DNA of 64,000 nucleotides from Nocardia ninae NBRC 108245. Lineage in GTDB: Bacteria; Actinomycetota; Actinomycetes; Mycobacteriales; Mycobacteriaceae. The DNA lies in assembly GCF_007990755.1 (NCBI RefSeq), contig NZ_BJXA01000037.1:1-64000 (forward strand). Direction: 5' to 3'. A program made the translations under genes and the position numbers. Shown here one piece after another: positions 28,879-56,034 of this stretch. The notes under the pieces were generated by a model, which had not been told where the DNA came from, did not search any database, and was given only the letters and a program-made list of their open reading frames with translations. Within the stretch, counting starts at the first letter, position 1. Each line of letters begins with the position of its first letter.

Positions 28879-30516
28879 TCAGGTGGTGATGCCGAGGTCG
28901 GTGCAGGCGCGGGCGCCGCTTTCGAGTGCGCCTTCGATCCAGGCTCGGCCTCGGGTGGAGGTGGCATCGCCTGCGAACGCGACCCGCCCGTCCATTTCGG
29001 GGGTGCGGGTGTCCGGGCCGATCTCGACCGATTGCCCGGGCAGGTAGATCGCGGCTTCACCGTTTGCCCAGCGGTCGGTGGCCCAGGAGTGCGAGGCGTA
29101 GCCGCCGGTCCATGCGGCGCGGACGGCGGGGCCGTGCACGTCGGCGAGGTGATCGAGGCATTCGGCCGCGCGTTCGGCCGGGAGCAGGCCGTCCCAGGCA
29201 TGCGCGTCGTCGGCCCAGGTGTAGGAGGCGATGACGACGCCACCGTCGCCGGTGGGATGAGAGGGGTACACCGTCAGTCGTGGTGGGGCGTCGGTGACGT
29301 CGATGCCGCCGTGCCCGGCCCACCAGCGGGTGGAGAACTCGAGGAAGGTTTTGGTGGCGGCGTCGTGATGCAGCTCCGCGATCGCGCGTTGTTTGCCGTA
29401 GGACAGGGCCGGCTGGAAGCCGAGGTAACGCAGCAGCGAATACGGTGCCGCGACCACGACGCGATCGACCTCCACGGTGTCCTCGCCCGCGCCGTACCTC
29501 AGCCGCACCCGCGGGTGTCGTCCGTCGATCCCGGTGACCACGGAGTTCGTGATGATCTCCGCGCCGGCGGCTTTCGCGGCACCGGCCAACTCGACGATCA
29601 ACCGGTCGGTGCCGCCCACGATTTCGACCAGCTCGGTGCCGGGTGCGAGATTGGTGGCGGTCATCAGGTTGTGCGTCAGACTCAAACCCATGCGGGCGGT
29701 GATGCCCTCGATGGAGCCCAGATGGTCGATGCTCGATTCCGAAAGCCCCTGGGCCAGTAGCCAATCCCGCAGCGACATCTCGTCGTAGCGGGCCAGGAAG
29801 TCGGTCCAGGCTGCTACATCGCTGTCTCGGTGCACGCCCGTGCTCGCCAGCACCTGATCGAGCAGCGCGCGGCCGTGCACCGCCTCGGCACCGAACACCC
29901 CCGCGATCGGTGCCGGATCAGTGGTGTATTCGGCCCGGGTCATCGATACGCCACCGGCGCTGACCAATCGATGCGGGTGGGTCATGTGAAAGGGGCGGGT
30001 CTGTACACCCAACCGGGCCAGCACCCCGGTGGTGATCATGTGCGTGGTGGGGATGCGCATCGCACCGGCCTCGCCGTGACCACCGGTGGCCGTGAAAGGT
30101 TCCCGCAGCGTCCGAATCCGGCCGCCCACCCGGTCCGAACCCTCGAATACCCGCACCCGATGCCCCGCCCGCGCCAGGATCCACGCCGCGGCCAACCCGG
30201 CGGCACCGGCACCCACCACGGCGACATCCTGCGGGTTGTCCGTGCGCTTCGGGCCCGCGCCGGCAAGCAACTCCCGGTGCAGGGCCCGAACATCGCGACC
30301 GGACTCGTCCACACCCACGATGTCCCGGGCGACCAGCCGAGCCCGATCCCGCCGAGACGGTGAAATATCGGCACCCCCGGCCGCGGGCCGCAACGCCTCG
30401 CGGCCGGCGAAATGGCCGGAAGCAACCGCACCACCCGCCGCCCCCAACACCAGCCCGGCAGCACCGGCAGCGGTGTAACGCAACAGATCACGCCGACCAA
30501 CGGTGTTCTCACGCAC
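28879..30516 (-). CDS. flavin monoamine oxidase, Tat-exported
   Basis: 545 residues. The N-terminus has a twin-arginine signal (GRRDLLRYTAAGAAGLVLGAA), then the FAD dinucleotide fold VVGAGAAGLAAAWILARAGH with VFEGSDRVGGRIRTL, and a C-terminal FAD/substrate region ending VAFAGDATSTRGRAWIEGAL. This matches L-amino acid or monoamine oxidases that release aldehyde or keto acid, ammonia and peroxide. The GTG at 30516 follows AAAGGAGC at six bases. It lies downstream of the MFS transporter gene and the 72-bp repeat array on the same strand. Confidence 0.9.
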   Translation of the reverse strand: MRENTVGRRDLLRYTAAGAAGLVLGAAGGAVASGHFAGREALRPAAGGADISPSRRDRARLVARDIVGVDESGRDVRALHRELLAGAGPKRTDNPQDVAVVGAGAAGLAAAWILARAGHRVRVFEGSDRVGGRIRTLREPFTATGGHGEAGAMRIPTTHMITTGVLARLGVQTRPFHMTHPHRLVSAGGVSMTRAEYTTDPAPIAGVFGAEAVHGRALLDQVLASTGVHRDSDVAAWTDFLARYDEMSLRDWLLAQGLSESSIDHLGSIEGITARMGLSLTHNLMTATNLAPGTELVEIVGGTDRLIVELAGAAKAAGAEIITNSVVTGIDGRHPRVRLRYGAGEDTVEVDRVVVAAPYSLLRYLGFQPALSYGKQRAIAELHHDAATKTFLEFSTRWWAGHGGIDVTDAPPRLTVYPSHPTGDGGVVIASYTWADDAHAWDGLLPAERAAECLDHLADVHGPAVRAAWTGGYASHSWATDRWANGEAAIYLPGQSVEIGPDTRTPEMDGRVAFAGDATSTRGRAWIEGALESGARACTDLGITT

Positions 30517-30748
30517 GATCCAGCTCCTTTGCTGCGATCCGGTCCACACCACCGGATCGACCACGCGGCCGATCCGTGCTGATCGGGCCACCGACCCACC
30601 CTCAGCGCAGACACTGTGTCACACGTCACCGCCCCGATCCCGGCACCTGAGGTGTGTCGCCGCCGACCAGTCCCGTTCACCACCCCAACCGCCCCACAAG
30701 ATCAACTTCCCGGCCCCGGTCCCCTCGCCGAGATCGTGAGACTGATCG

Positions 30749-31807
30749 GCGTCAGGCCTTACAGCGGATGAATGTGGACACACCACCACGGCACCGACCG
30801 AGCGGGACCGCCATCAAGTCCCTACTCGCAAATGCCATCAGCAGCGACGGGACACCACGACGGCATTTACTGCGTGGAACCGCCACAACGTCCCACTCGC
30901 GAATCCCGGCCGTACCCAACGGGACACCACGGCGCCACCCATCGAAGACGGCCGCCACCATGTCCCGCGCGCGAATCCCATCAGCAGCCAACGGGACAGC
31001 ACAGCGGCATCCATCGAGCAGACCCGCCAACATGTCCCGCTCGCGAATCCCGGCCGTCCCAACGGGCCACCACGGCGGCACCCTCCGAACGGGGCCGCCA
31101 CCATGTCCCGCGTGCAAGCGCCGTCCGTGCCCAACGGGAGACCAGCGCGGCATCCGCCGAGTGACACCTCCACCACGTCCCGTTCAGGCGCACCACCGTG
31201 ACGGCGGGGACATGAGCGTGCGGCGTCAGGCCTTACGGCGGATGAAGGCAGACACCACGGCGCAGCCACGGAGTGGGACCGCCACCACGTCCCACCCGCG
31301 AATGCCATCAGCAGCCAACGGGACGCCACGGCGGCATCCATCGAGCAGACCCGCCAACATGTCCCGTTCGCGAATCCCGTCCGTGCCCAACGGGACACCA
31401 CGGCGGCATGCGCCGGGTGACGCCTCCACCAGGTCCCACCCGCAGATGCCGACCACGCCCAACGGGACACCAGGAGGGCATCCGCCGAGCGACGCCGCAG
31501 ACATGTCCCGTTCGCGCGCAGCAGCAACGCTGGCGGGGACATGGCGGCGGGCGTCAGGCCCTACAGCGGATGAAGGCGGACACGGCGACACCGGCCGAGT
31601 GGAACCGCCACGACGTCCTATCCGCGAATGCCATCGGCGCCCAACGGAAGACAACGGCATCACTCACCGCGTCGAGCCGCCACCAGGTCCCACCCGCGGA
31701 TGCCGACCACGCCCAACGGGACACCAGGACGGCATCCGCCGAGCGACGCCACCGTCATGTCCCGTTCGCGCGCAGCGTCAACGCTGGAGGGGACATGGCG
31801 GCGGGCG
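30749..31807. repeat. 72-bp tandem repeat array with embedded copies of the MFS gene 3' end
   Basis: Thirteen repeat units begin with a (T/C/G)GTCCC(A/G) box at 30817, 30889, 30961, 31033, 31104, 31176, 31288, 31360, 31432, 31504, 31614, 31686 and 31758. Ten are 72 bp or differ by one base; those at 31176 and 31504 are about 110 bp because each also contains a copy of the last 28 bases of the adjacent MFS gene. Such copies lie at 30752-30779, 31226-31253 and 31554-31581, with the original at 31808-31835. Each unit carries CGGGACA-type and TGTCCCG-type arms that can pair. Units are diverged but clearly nested by duplication (31432 resembles 31686; 31504 resembles 31758). A VNTR- or MIRU-like intergenic element; not CRISPR. 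Confidence 0.85.
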
Positions 31808-33094
31808 TCAGGCCTTGCGGCGGATGAAGGCGGACATTACGGCTGCCGTGGCGCATAACCCGCCGGCCAAGTACCAGGCGAGGTCGTAGGTGCCTTGGAC
31901 ATCGCGGATGACGCCCGCGCCGGTGGCGGCGATGGCGGAGCCGATCTGGTGGGAGGCGAAGACCCAGCCGAAGGCGACGGGGCCGTCGTTGCCGAACAGT
32001 TCACGGCAGAGCATGACGGTCGGTGGGACGGTGGCTACCCAGTCGAGGCCGTAGAAGATGATGAACACCCAGAGGCTGGGTTGGGTGTGCGGGCCCAGCA
32101 GCGACGGCAGGATGAGCAGGGACAGGCCGCGCAGCACGTAGTAGCCGACCAGTAGATAGCGCGGATCGATGCGGTCGGTCAGCCAGCCGGACGCGATGGT
32201 GCCCGCCACGTCGAAGATGCCGACCACGGCGAGCAGGCTCGCGGCGGCGGTCGGCGGCATGCCGTGGTCGTGCGCGGCGCTGACGAAATGGGTGCCGACG
32301 AGACCGTTGGTCGACGCGCCGCAGACCGCGAAACCACCTGCCAGCAGCCAGAATCCGGGTGTGCGCGCGATCTTGGCCAGCACCGTGAGCGCGCGGGACG
32401 CGCCGACCGAGGCCGGTGTGCGGACGCCGACGACACTGCCCGGTTCCGCGCCGTACGCGGTGACCCCGACATCACTCGGATAGTCCCTGATGAACAGCAA
32501 CACCAGCGGCACGACGGCCAGCGCCGTCCCGGCGACGATCAGCGACGGCAGCCGCCAGCCGTGCTCGTGCGCCAGCATCGACACCAGCGGCAGGAACACC
32601 AGCTGACCGGTCGCACCCGCCGCCGTGAGCACCCCGGTGACCAGTCCGCGCTGGCGCACGAACCAGCGGCCGGTGATGGTCGCCACGAACGGCATCGACA
32701 TCGACCCGACCCCGACACCCACCAGCAGACCCCAGGTCAGCATGAGATGCCACGGCTGGGTCATGAACACGGTGAGCCCCGCGCCCGCCGCGACGAGCAC
32801 CAGCGCCCCCGACACCACCTTGCGGATGCCGAACCGGTCCATCAGCGCCGCCGCGAACGGCGAAATCAACCCGTACAACAGCAGATTCAGCGAGACCGCC
32901 GCACCGATCGTGCCGTGCGACCAGCCGAACTCCGCGTGCAGCGGATCCATCAGCACACTGGGCACCGAGCGGAACGCGGCCGCACCGAGCAGCGCGACGA
33001 AGCCGACCCCCGCCACGATCCACGCCGGATGCGGACCGCGCCGGGCGACGGTGTCGTGCAACGGTACTGGCGGTGGTGTCTGCAGCTCGGTCAC
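31808..33094 (-). CDS. MFS transporter
   Basis: 428 residues with 12 predicted membrane helices; GWSHGTIGAAVSLNLLLYG, ALMDRFGIRKVV (loop 2-3 motif), and a second half starting FWLLAGGFAVCGAST resemble oxalate/formate antiporter-like or monocarboxylate MFS proteins. The substrate is unknown. The GTG at 33094 is chosen because the protein then begins VTELQTPPPV shortly before helix 1; further upstream frame is antisense to the VOC gene. The C-terminus MSAFIRRKA is the sequence copied three times in the array directly downstream. Confidence 0.88.
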   Translation of the reverse strand: MTELQTPPPVPLHDTVARRGPHPAWIVAGVGFVALLGAAAFRSVPSVLMDPLHAEFGWSHGTIGAAVSLNLLLYGLISPFAAALMDRFGIRKVVSGALVLVAAGAGLTVFMTQPWHLMLTWGLLVGVGVGSMSMPFVATITGRWFVRQRGLVTGVLTAAGATGQLVFLPLVSMLAHEHGWRLPSLIVAGTALAVVPLVLLFIRDYPSDVGVTAYGAEPGSVVGVRTPASVGASRALTVLAKIARTPGFWLLAGGFAVCGASTNGLVGTHFVSAAHDHGMPPTAAASLLAVVGIFDVAGTIASGWLTDRIDPRYLLVGYYVLRGLSLLILPSLLGPHTQPSLWVFIIFYGLDWVATVPPTVMLCRELFGNDGPVAFGWVFASHQIGSAIAATGAGVIRDVQGTYDLAWYLAGGLCATAAVMSAFIRRKA

Positions 33095-33244
33095 CCGCTG
33101 AGCGTGCCGGAAATTCGGCCGCGCAACGAGCAGCCGGAAGGCCACAAAACACCAAGATCGTGCCAGGAACGGCGACACGCCAATCCGCTCGACACCGCGC
33201 GTCGCTTTCCCTATGGTGTCTGCGGGCACAAGACAGGAGTGAAC

Positions 33245-55794: not shown

Positions 55795-56034
55795 CCGCAT
55801 CCCTCTCATATCCGCGACATCCAGCTCACTGTGCGTGTCCGTCGTAGGTCGCGGGCGCCCCTCCTGGTTCAGAGCCGCACCCTAAGTCGCAGCCGCCCTG
55901 CTAAGTCCCAGCCGCCCTCCTAAGTCGCAGCCGCCCTCCAGGTCTCAGCCGGGCCTCCTAGGTCGGGGGCGAATTCGCATATTGCCACCCAGCCACCAGC
56001 TTCGAAACCGACTGCTGCCGAACACCTTCGAACC

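Follow-up and report, generated by a model that had tools for sequence, protein, structure and literature searches.

Introduction

REP and BIME sequences of the GTAG and CGTC super-families are short, high-copy palindromes that lie between genes, mostly downstream of them, and occur singly or in clusters; REPtrons can be lost (available text of PMC3733652). Here, we analyze the window, a stretch of 64,000 nucleotides from Nocardia ninae NBRC 108245, which contains a repeat with the same general traits, i.e., dispersed intergenic palindromes that alternate in orientation within clusters. However, the foot of its 89-unit consensus carries GGGAC/GTCCC and no GTAG, no CGTC stands at a fixed end of the consensus, and a search with PF01797 finds no Y1 transposase in the carrier genomes. 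Furthermore, this family has long, regular 72-bp arrays and is found here only in a Nocardia group.

MITEs are small, dispersed and non-coding and have inverted ends, a description that also fits the Nocardia repeat. MIRU units supply start and stop signals of neighboring genes, whereas the stop codon at the Nocardia locus belongs to the native end of an MFS transporter gene and not to the unit. The MIRU-VNTR loci of Mycobacterium tuberculosis are intergenic, with units of 40-100 bp and a variable copy number (available text of PMC2734929). The Nocardia units are likewise tandem, intergenic, within 40-100 bp and variable in number (between species), but they form alternating palindromes in degenerate arrays, with more than 100 strict matches in each of three genomes. 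Intergenic stem-loop families enriched at 3′ ends are biased to convergent and away from divergent gaps (available text of PMC1590033). The Nocardia arrays share this bias; however, their outer arm positions in N. ninae are not kept as base pairs. With a probability of roughly 0.7, we regard the array in the window as a locally amplified member of a clade-specific, non-coding, dispersed family of palindromic intergenic elements that is REP/BIME-like.

Organization of the array in the window

The tandem array (30780..31800, no strand) comprises about 13 units of about 72 bp, a GGGAC-N36-GTCCC-N26 repeat interrupted by copies of the MFS gene end, and was delimited using TRF, a repeat search, the minus-strand layout and the strict pattern. 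The TRF rows jointly span 30780-31750 at scores of up to 941 and give periods of 72, 143/144 and 328. Splitting the minus strand at GGGAC yields 13 units, including a degenerate one near 31619, so that TRF and layout together confirm the thirteen units at 72-base spacing described in the initial annotation. In this layout, the unit consists of alternating inverted half-sites, GGGAC-N36-GTCCC-N26-GGGAC, and this strict triple matches 13 times within the array. Since the unit is internally palindromic, it fits its own model on both strands. A higher-order organization is superimposed: a 254-bp block on the minus strand (31581..31834), containing the MFS end, a hairpin and units, is repeated without gaps and with 83% identity at 31327..31580 (minus strand), and a second repeat pair (30935-31045 and 31262-31372, 85% identity) corresponds to a period of ~328 bp. 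The repeat search and the layout support the nested order proposed earlier, in which several units and the gene end were copied jointly.

The MFS gene end and its apparent capture

The MFS transporter gene (31808..33145, minus strand; PF07690, E 8e-39; start codon uncertain) borders the array. Its native 3′ end with the stop codon, the source of the captured segment, lies at 31803..31837 on the minus strand, was delimited by repeat search and is also present in array-less orthologues. A 35-nt repeat starts at 30747, 31221, 31549 and 31803, the last copy being the gene itself. The three additional copies, each of ~30 bases and already noticed in the initial annotation, were placed on the minus strand by the 35-nt repeat and the layout; they would read VSAFIRCRA-stop (31549..31583), VSAFIRRKA-stop (31221..31255) and, at the outer border of the array, VSTFIRCKA-stop (30747..30781). 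Directly 3′ of the MFS stop codon is a hairpin (31727..31809, no strand) with fold z-scores of -4.5 on the plus and -2.7 on the minus strand; by eye, hairpin-like sequence also follows two of the three captured ends, although only 31727..31809 was folded.

Because orthologues without the array have it, the SAFIRR tail is native to the MFS gene, and the array would have captured the gene end rather than supplied it. In the array-less orthologues of genomes G129 and G009, the protein ends in SAFIRRKV and SAFIRRMTLAQTY, respectively. Variable tails end around the same place in 32 other Nocardia MFS homologues, and no array match was found within 3.5 kb downstream of these. The idea that recombination restores SAFIRRKA and the stop codon to the transporter is therefore not upheld, given a native tail that is seen in the array-less G129 orthologue; in addition, two of the three copies in the window would alter residues (VSTFIRCKA, VSAFIRCRA). 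The MFS protein looks intact and its tail is independent of the array, which at this locus appears to have engulfed the final bases of the gene.

The MFS locus in seven species

In N. ninae, the order is amine oxidase, array of ~1.0 kb and MFS, with both genes on the minus strand; the flavin amine oxidase gene (PF01593, E 5e-61) occupies 28879..30516. The order in G127 is array (1134 bp), amine oxidase, array (456 bp) and MFS. Neither G041 nor G067 has the amine oxidase at this locus, where G041 carries an array of ~1.4 kb with interruptions and G067 two units, and at the MFS loci of G009, G129 and G031 neither an array match nor the amine oxidase was detected. Among the seven loci, tblastn thus places an amine oxidase beside an array in N. 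ninae and G127 only. It is probably a gene gained inside an array, and the N. ninae array on its far side was either lost or never present. Copies of the MFS end flank the amine oxidase of G127 on both sides (scores 52 and 40), whereas the G041 locus has the native end only, no other copy scoring >30, which would date the capture after the split from G041.

Four further orthologous arrays differ in length between N. ninae and G127 (737 vs 842, 691 vs 1220, 151 vs 126 and 202 vs 464 bp), and no counterpart of a fifth N. ninae array, of 57 bp, was detected in G127. The initial annotation had called the MFS locus hypervariable; between species, for which one genome each was compared, the array does range from absent to >1 kb, and the description holds at that level. 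At the G129 MFS locus (L246, ~9.6-10.1 kb), a different tandem repeat of ~19 bp, of the GGTCAGCTGGGGTGCGGGC type, is visible by eye after the MFS gene.

A probable second composite beside ispH

Both N. ninae and its sister G127 also have an array beside ispH; in G127, 1.4 Mb separate this site from the MFS gene. Beginning at the MFS end, 517 bp of this array align to the window (74%, E 2e-74). The array contains MFS-end-like segments, three clear ones in N. ninae and two in G127, that are diverged and have internal indels, and its model span is about equal in the two genomes (708 and 709 bp). In 1.03 Mb of N. ninae DNA, the best MFS-end scores are those of the four copies in the window (60, 52, 48 and 44), followed by 36, 34, 34 and 34 in the ispH array (from partly overlapping tiles) and 34 for a tile of the window; the best score elsewhere is 32. 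On the same scale, the G127 ispH segments score 32, compared with 42 for the genuine MFS end in G129 and 32 for that in G009.

A diverged copy of the mixture of array and MFS end thus probably adjoins ispH. The short ispH segments by themselves would not prove a transfer; the 517-bp colinear alignment, together with the number, position and shared layout of the segments, leads us to infer a single transfer of one composite block. At the ispH site of G067, the gap measures ~137 bp and has no array, and no array match was found within 1500 bp of ispH in G041, G031 and G114. In G129 and G009, the 821 and 714 bp downstream of ispH before the contig end are free of matches, which is a weak absence. 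By eye, a tandem repeat of ~25 bp, of the GCGCTGAGCTGCGGCGGACCATCCG type, stands on both flanks of the ispH array (G000, C27, ~99.7-100.7 kb; L002, 1350-2400).

A dispersed family in one group of Nocardia

The strict triple has 126 matches in the N. ninae genome (62 + 64) compared with 1 for a reversed control pattern, and the array used as a DNA query detects at least 20 places in this genome, with 40 of 157 candidates scored. In 800 kb of N. ninae DNA sampled by contig number (C1, C2, C3), GTCCC follows GGGAC at +41 19 times and GGGAC follows GTCCC at +31 29 times, against a median of 0-1 over other distances; +72 is likewise far above these. The related copies at other gene ends that the initial annotation had called for are accordingly present as matches dispersed across the genome. 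Extrapolation from 14 and 8 arrays per 800 kb would give roughly one hundred arrays per genome, or more.

Across 150 genomes of the genus, strict matches number 181 in G041, 174 in G127, 126 in N. ninae, 24 in G009 and 5 in G067; G094 has a single match whose sequence is unrelated, and 144 genomes have 0. Among 401 genomes of the family, not counting N. ninae, only eight contain the strict pattern, with 1-3 matches each and a total of 10, compared with 12 for the reversed control; beyond the Nocardia group, it thus occurs no more often than expected by chance. MFS protein identity to N. ninae is 99% for G127, 95% for G041, 94% for G129, 92% for G067, 90% for G009 and 89% for G031. All five carriers (100, 99, 95, 92 and 90%) are within the six nearest genomes by this measure, N. 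ninae counted, and form one close group within Nocardia. G129 (94%) has no strict match although it is placed among the carriers, a gap that would need loss or independent expansion.

The Y1 (RAYT-type) transposase domain PF01797 occurs in 28 of the 150 genomes, none of them a carrier, and mobilization by RAYT was rejected on this basis. Neither the plasmid nor the phage collection contained a match. In our literature search, no title or abstract opening named this repeat family, and the available text of two Nocardia genome papers (PMC5336288, PMC12735748) does not describe it.

Sampled arrays lie between genes and avoid divergent gaps

All 22 sampled arrays are intergenic. The sample covers the 800 kb of N. 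ninae (14 arrays) and 40 evenly spaced 20-kb stretches of G127 (eight arrays) and leaves out the window; it was scored with a model built from N. ninae units (E < 0.01, matches <200 bp apart merged) and a simple gene caller. An array was called intergenic if more than half of it lay inside a gap of at least 50 bp, and two arrays extend into predicted genes, by 12 and 6 bp. Under a less strict threshold for genes, two of 17 arrays show overlaps of 12 and 420 bp with predicted genes, which we take as spurious calls. Fourteen arrays lie in tandem, eight in convergent and none in divergent gaps, whereas the background by intergenic base pairs is 58% tandem, 17% convergent and 25% divergent (uncorrected p = 0.67, 0.022 and 0.0025, respectively). 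Two of the G127 arrays belong to the MFS locus, and the arrays of N. ninae and G127 may be partly orthologous and are thus not fully independent.

The eight G127 arrays from the evenly spaced stretches lie between 2.28 and 7.31 Mb, but there are further strict matches at 1.14 and 1.65 Mb, and the ispH array maps to ~8.26 Mb. Features of element orientation disagree between loci, and a relation between strand and transcription was dropped.

Unit evolution, core pairing and folding

At its simplest, the element consists of two inverted half-sites (about GGGACATGGYGGMGG), and additional half-sites follow 26 bp beyond this pair. Considering the five locus pairs of N. ninae and G127 and counting both strands, the nearest neighbor comes from the same locus for 93 of 96 units, and for 40 of these it belongs to the other genome. 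Dispersal therefore looks older than the split between N. ninae and G127, and turnover looks local. Between loci (113 spacers, 31 loci), identity is 0.60 in the arms vs 0.376 in the middle of the spacer, and 0.284 after shuffling. In G009, the most distant of the strong carriers, 14 of 16 loci hold one core; long, degenerate, alternating arrays are found in N. ninae, G127 and G041.

For the consensus, 89 of 148 cores were oriented and 59 dropped; CGAG at positions 23-26 is conserved by selection and GGGAC/GTCCC by the search pattern. The fold set retains the family-like cores, 56 of 75 in N. ninae, 30 of 40 in G127, 14 of 36 in G041 and nine of 17 in G009. In four of the nine G009 cores, the stem runs without a break for 15-18 bp; a hairpin or one protein recognizing two half-sites would explain the pairing in this genome. 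Pair 13/34 is A-T in eight of nine G009 cores and C-G in 39 of 56 N. ninae cores. In the N. ninae, G127 and G041 set, pairs 8-10 are formed in 22, 23 and 22 of 89 cores vs a shuffled expectation of 34, 40 and 35, while pairing is somewhat in excess at the inner positions 11 and 13 (z = 3.2 and 3.9); the symmetrized shuffle used for the latter two lowers z due to the mixing of orientations. Compared with single-base shuffles, mean fold z-scores of the cores are -2.4 in N. ninae, -1.8 in G127, -2.3 in G041 and -5.9 in G009, and eight single units of the window give z-scores from +0.29 to -1.63 against dinucleotide shuffles. For an RNA hairpin as the conserved feature of the N. ninae arrays, the picture is mixed, with a deficit at pairs 8-10 and an excess at 11 and 13. 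Assignment to an RNA family was rejected, the only Rfam match being sub-threshold (19.1 bits vs a cut-off of 37).

Spacer lengths

Counted as pairs, which are not independent loci, 139 spacers measure 26 bp, 15 measure 25 bp and 13 measure 36 bp. Across the whole genomes of N. ninae, G127 and G041, longer spacers give 81 matches with 73 distinct spacers; by loci, 17 are at 36 bp, six at 37 bp and five each at 45 and 46 bp, with 0-3 at other lengths from 28 to 52 bp. Leaving out the 26-27 bp spacers, these classes deviate from uniform lengths with p ~5e-5. The long side is fitted best by a period of 8.8 bp (R = 0.54), while periods of 10.0 and 10.4 bp give R = 0.51 and 0.49, respectively. Short spacers of 19-23 bp account for 11 length-by-locus counts and 16 bp for one; taken jointly, and leaving out the 25-27 bp spacers, the long and short sides give p = 0.005. 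The short spacers do not follow steps of ten and so weaken the case for strict helical phasing to either side of 26 bp. Among longer cores, 37 bp predominates; a length of 45 bp occurs at a single locus, 46 and 47 bp do not occur, and several cores measure 51-60 bp. The length classes of the long spacers hint at a helically phased protein lattice; the short spacers do not.

Interpretation of the repeat family

Hairpins could act as transcription terminators or mRNA 3′-end elements that stop or stabilize transcripts from one or both sides. The avoidance of divergent and preference for convergent gaps speak for such a function, as do the strong hairpin right after the MFS stop (z = -4.5/-2.7), cores that fold better than single-base shuffles in every carrier tested, the excess pairing at 11 and 13, and the exchange of A-T in G009 for C-G in N. 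ninae at pair 13/34. However, pairs 8-10 fall below the shuffled expectation in N. ninae, G127 and G041, single-unit folds are weak (z from +0.29 to -1.63), and termination needs no long arrays, which makes this a possible but rather unlikely account. More doubtful is a DNA scaffold in which a clade-specific protein would bind the half-sites and the 36-bp core and 26-bp spacer would keep them on one helix face, with dyad centers every 36 bp and a period of 72. Spacer middles that are near-unrelated between loci while spacer length is nearly fixed, and the clustering of long spacers at 36-37 and 45-46 bp, are in line with it. Against this, spacers of 19-23 bp are common relative to 16 bp (joint p = 0.005), the best long-side period is 8.8 and not 10.4, orthologous loci of N. 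ninae and G127 were counted twice, and a long-spacer subfamily inherited by descent would give the same picture. Its extended form is similarly doubtful: a recently expanded, clade-specific chromosomal protein lattice, serving packing, segregation or topology, with dyads every 36 bp, free spacer sequence and length steps of about one helical turn (26, 36-37, 45-46), that would be able to take up a gene end and bring it to a new locus.

Membership in the MIRU-type mycobacterial VNTRs, the analogue named in the initial annotation, we consider very unlikely. Unit size, siting at a gene end and variation in unit number do correspond, but the likeness is one of behavior only: the repeat unit forms an alternating palindrome, the gene itself provides the stop codon, and the strict pattern is at chance level in the 401 family genomes, N. 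ninae aside. The unit length of 72, a multiple of three, and long open frames on both strands might suggest a 24-codon coding repeat that lengthens a protein; spacings of 71, 73, 143, 182 and 184 break the frame, two frames are without a Pfam match and the sampled loci are intergenic (22 of 22), and the coding reading was rejected as highly improbable, on the spacings and the Pfam result. An assembly artefact might be suspected in a draft genome of 204 contigs, but its likelihood is close to nil because the G127 assembly (9.1-Mb contig) and the G041 assembly carry arrays of the same kind at the orthologous site; moreover, the repeat copies are 64-85% alike and not identical. The REP/BIME-like interpretation has difficulties of its own. 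No mobilizing enzyme was identified in the carriers (PF01797 is confined to 28 non-carriers among the 150 genomes), single ispH segments, being diverged, score 36 and 34 in N. ninae vs 32 for the best unrelated sequence, the ispH array spans are about equal in N. ninae and G127, so not every locus differs, the 57-bp N. ninae array is without a detected G127 counterpart, and G129 is among the carriers by identity yet without a strict match.

Our conclusion is a new REP/BIME-like family characterized by long arrays. Most simply, it is a non-coding element that maintains itself and multiplies in intergenic gaps. It may have started as an inverted half-site pair, mostly a single core and often a near-perfect palindrome, as in G009. 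In N. ninae, G127 and G041, the core would have grown into long, degenerate, alternating arrays, which could lengthen and shorten through unequal recombination or replication slippage. One such event in the ancestor of N. ninae and G127 would have fused the terminal ~30 bases of the MFS gene with the array, and the composite of MFS end and array would then have been duplicated, with a copy coming to rest beside ispH. The locus thereby offers a case of a bacterial intergenic repeat that joins the end of a gene to itself, with a probable composite copy at a second locus. As array-bearing and array-free species stand close together, the birth, growth and dispersal of REP-like elements could be traced in actinobacteria for which the search for a Y1 transposase was negative, and the spacer length classes allow a direct test of protein binding.

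Other short repeats occur in the same material. In G000 (C53, 36.6-37.4 kb; L004/L005), arrays lie amid other short GC-rich repeats, as seen by eye, and the window holds another tandem repeat, of 19 bp in 4.9 copies, at 55873-55965.
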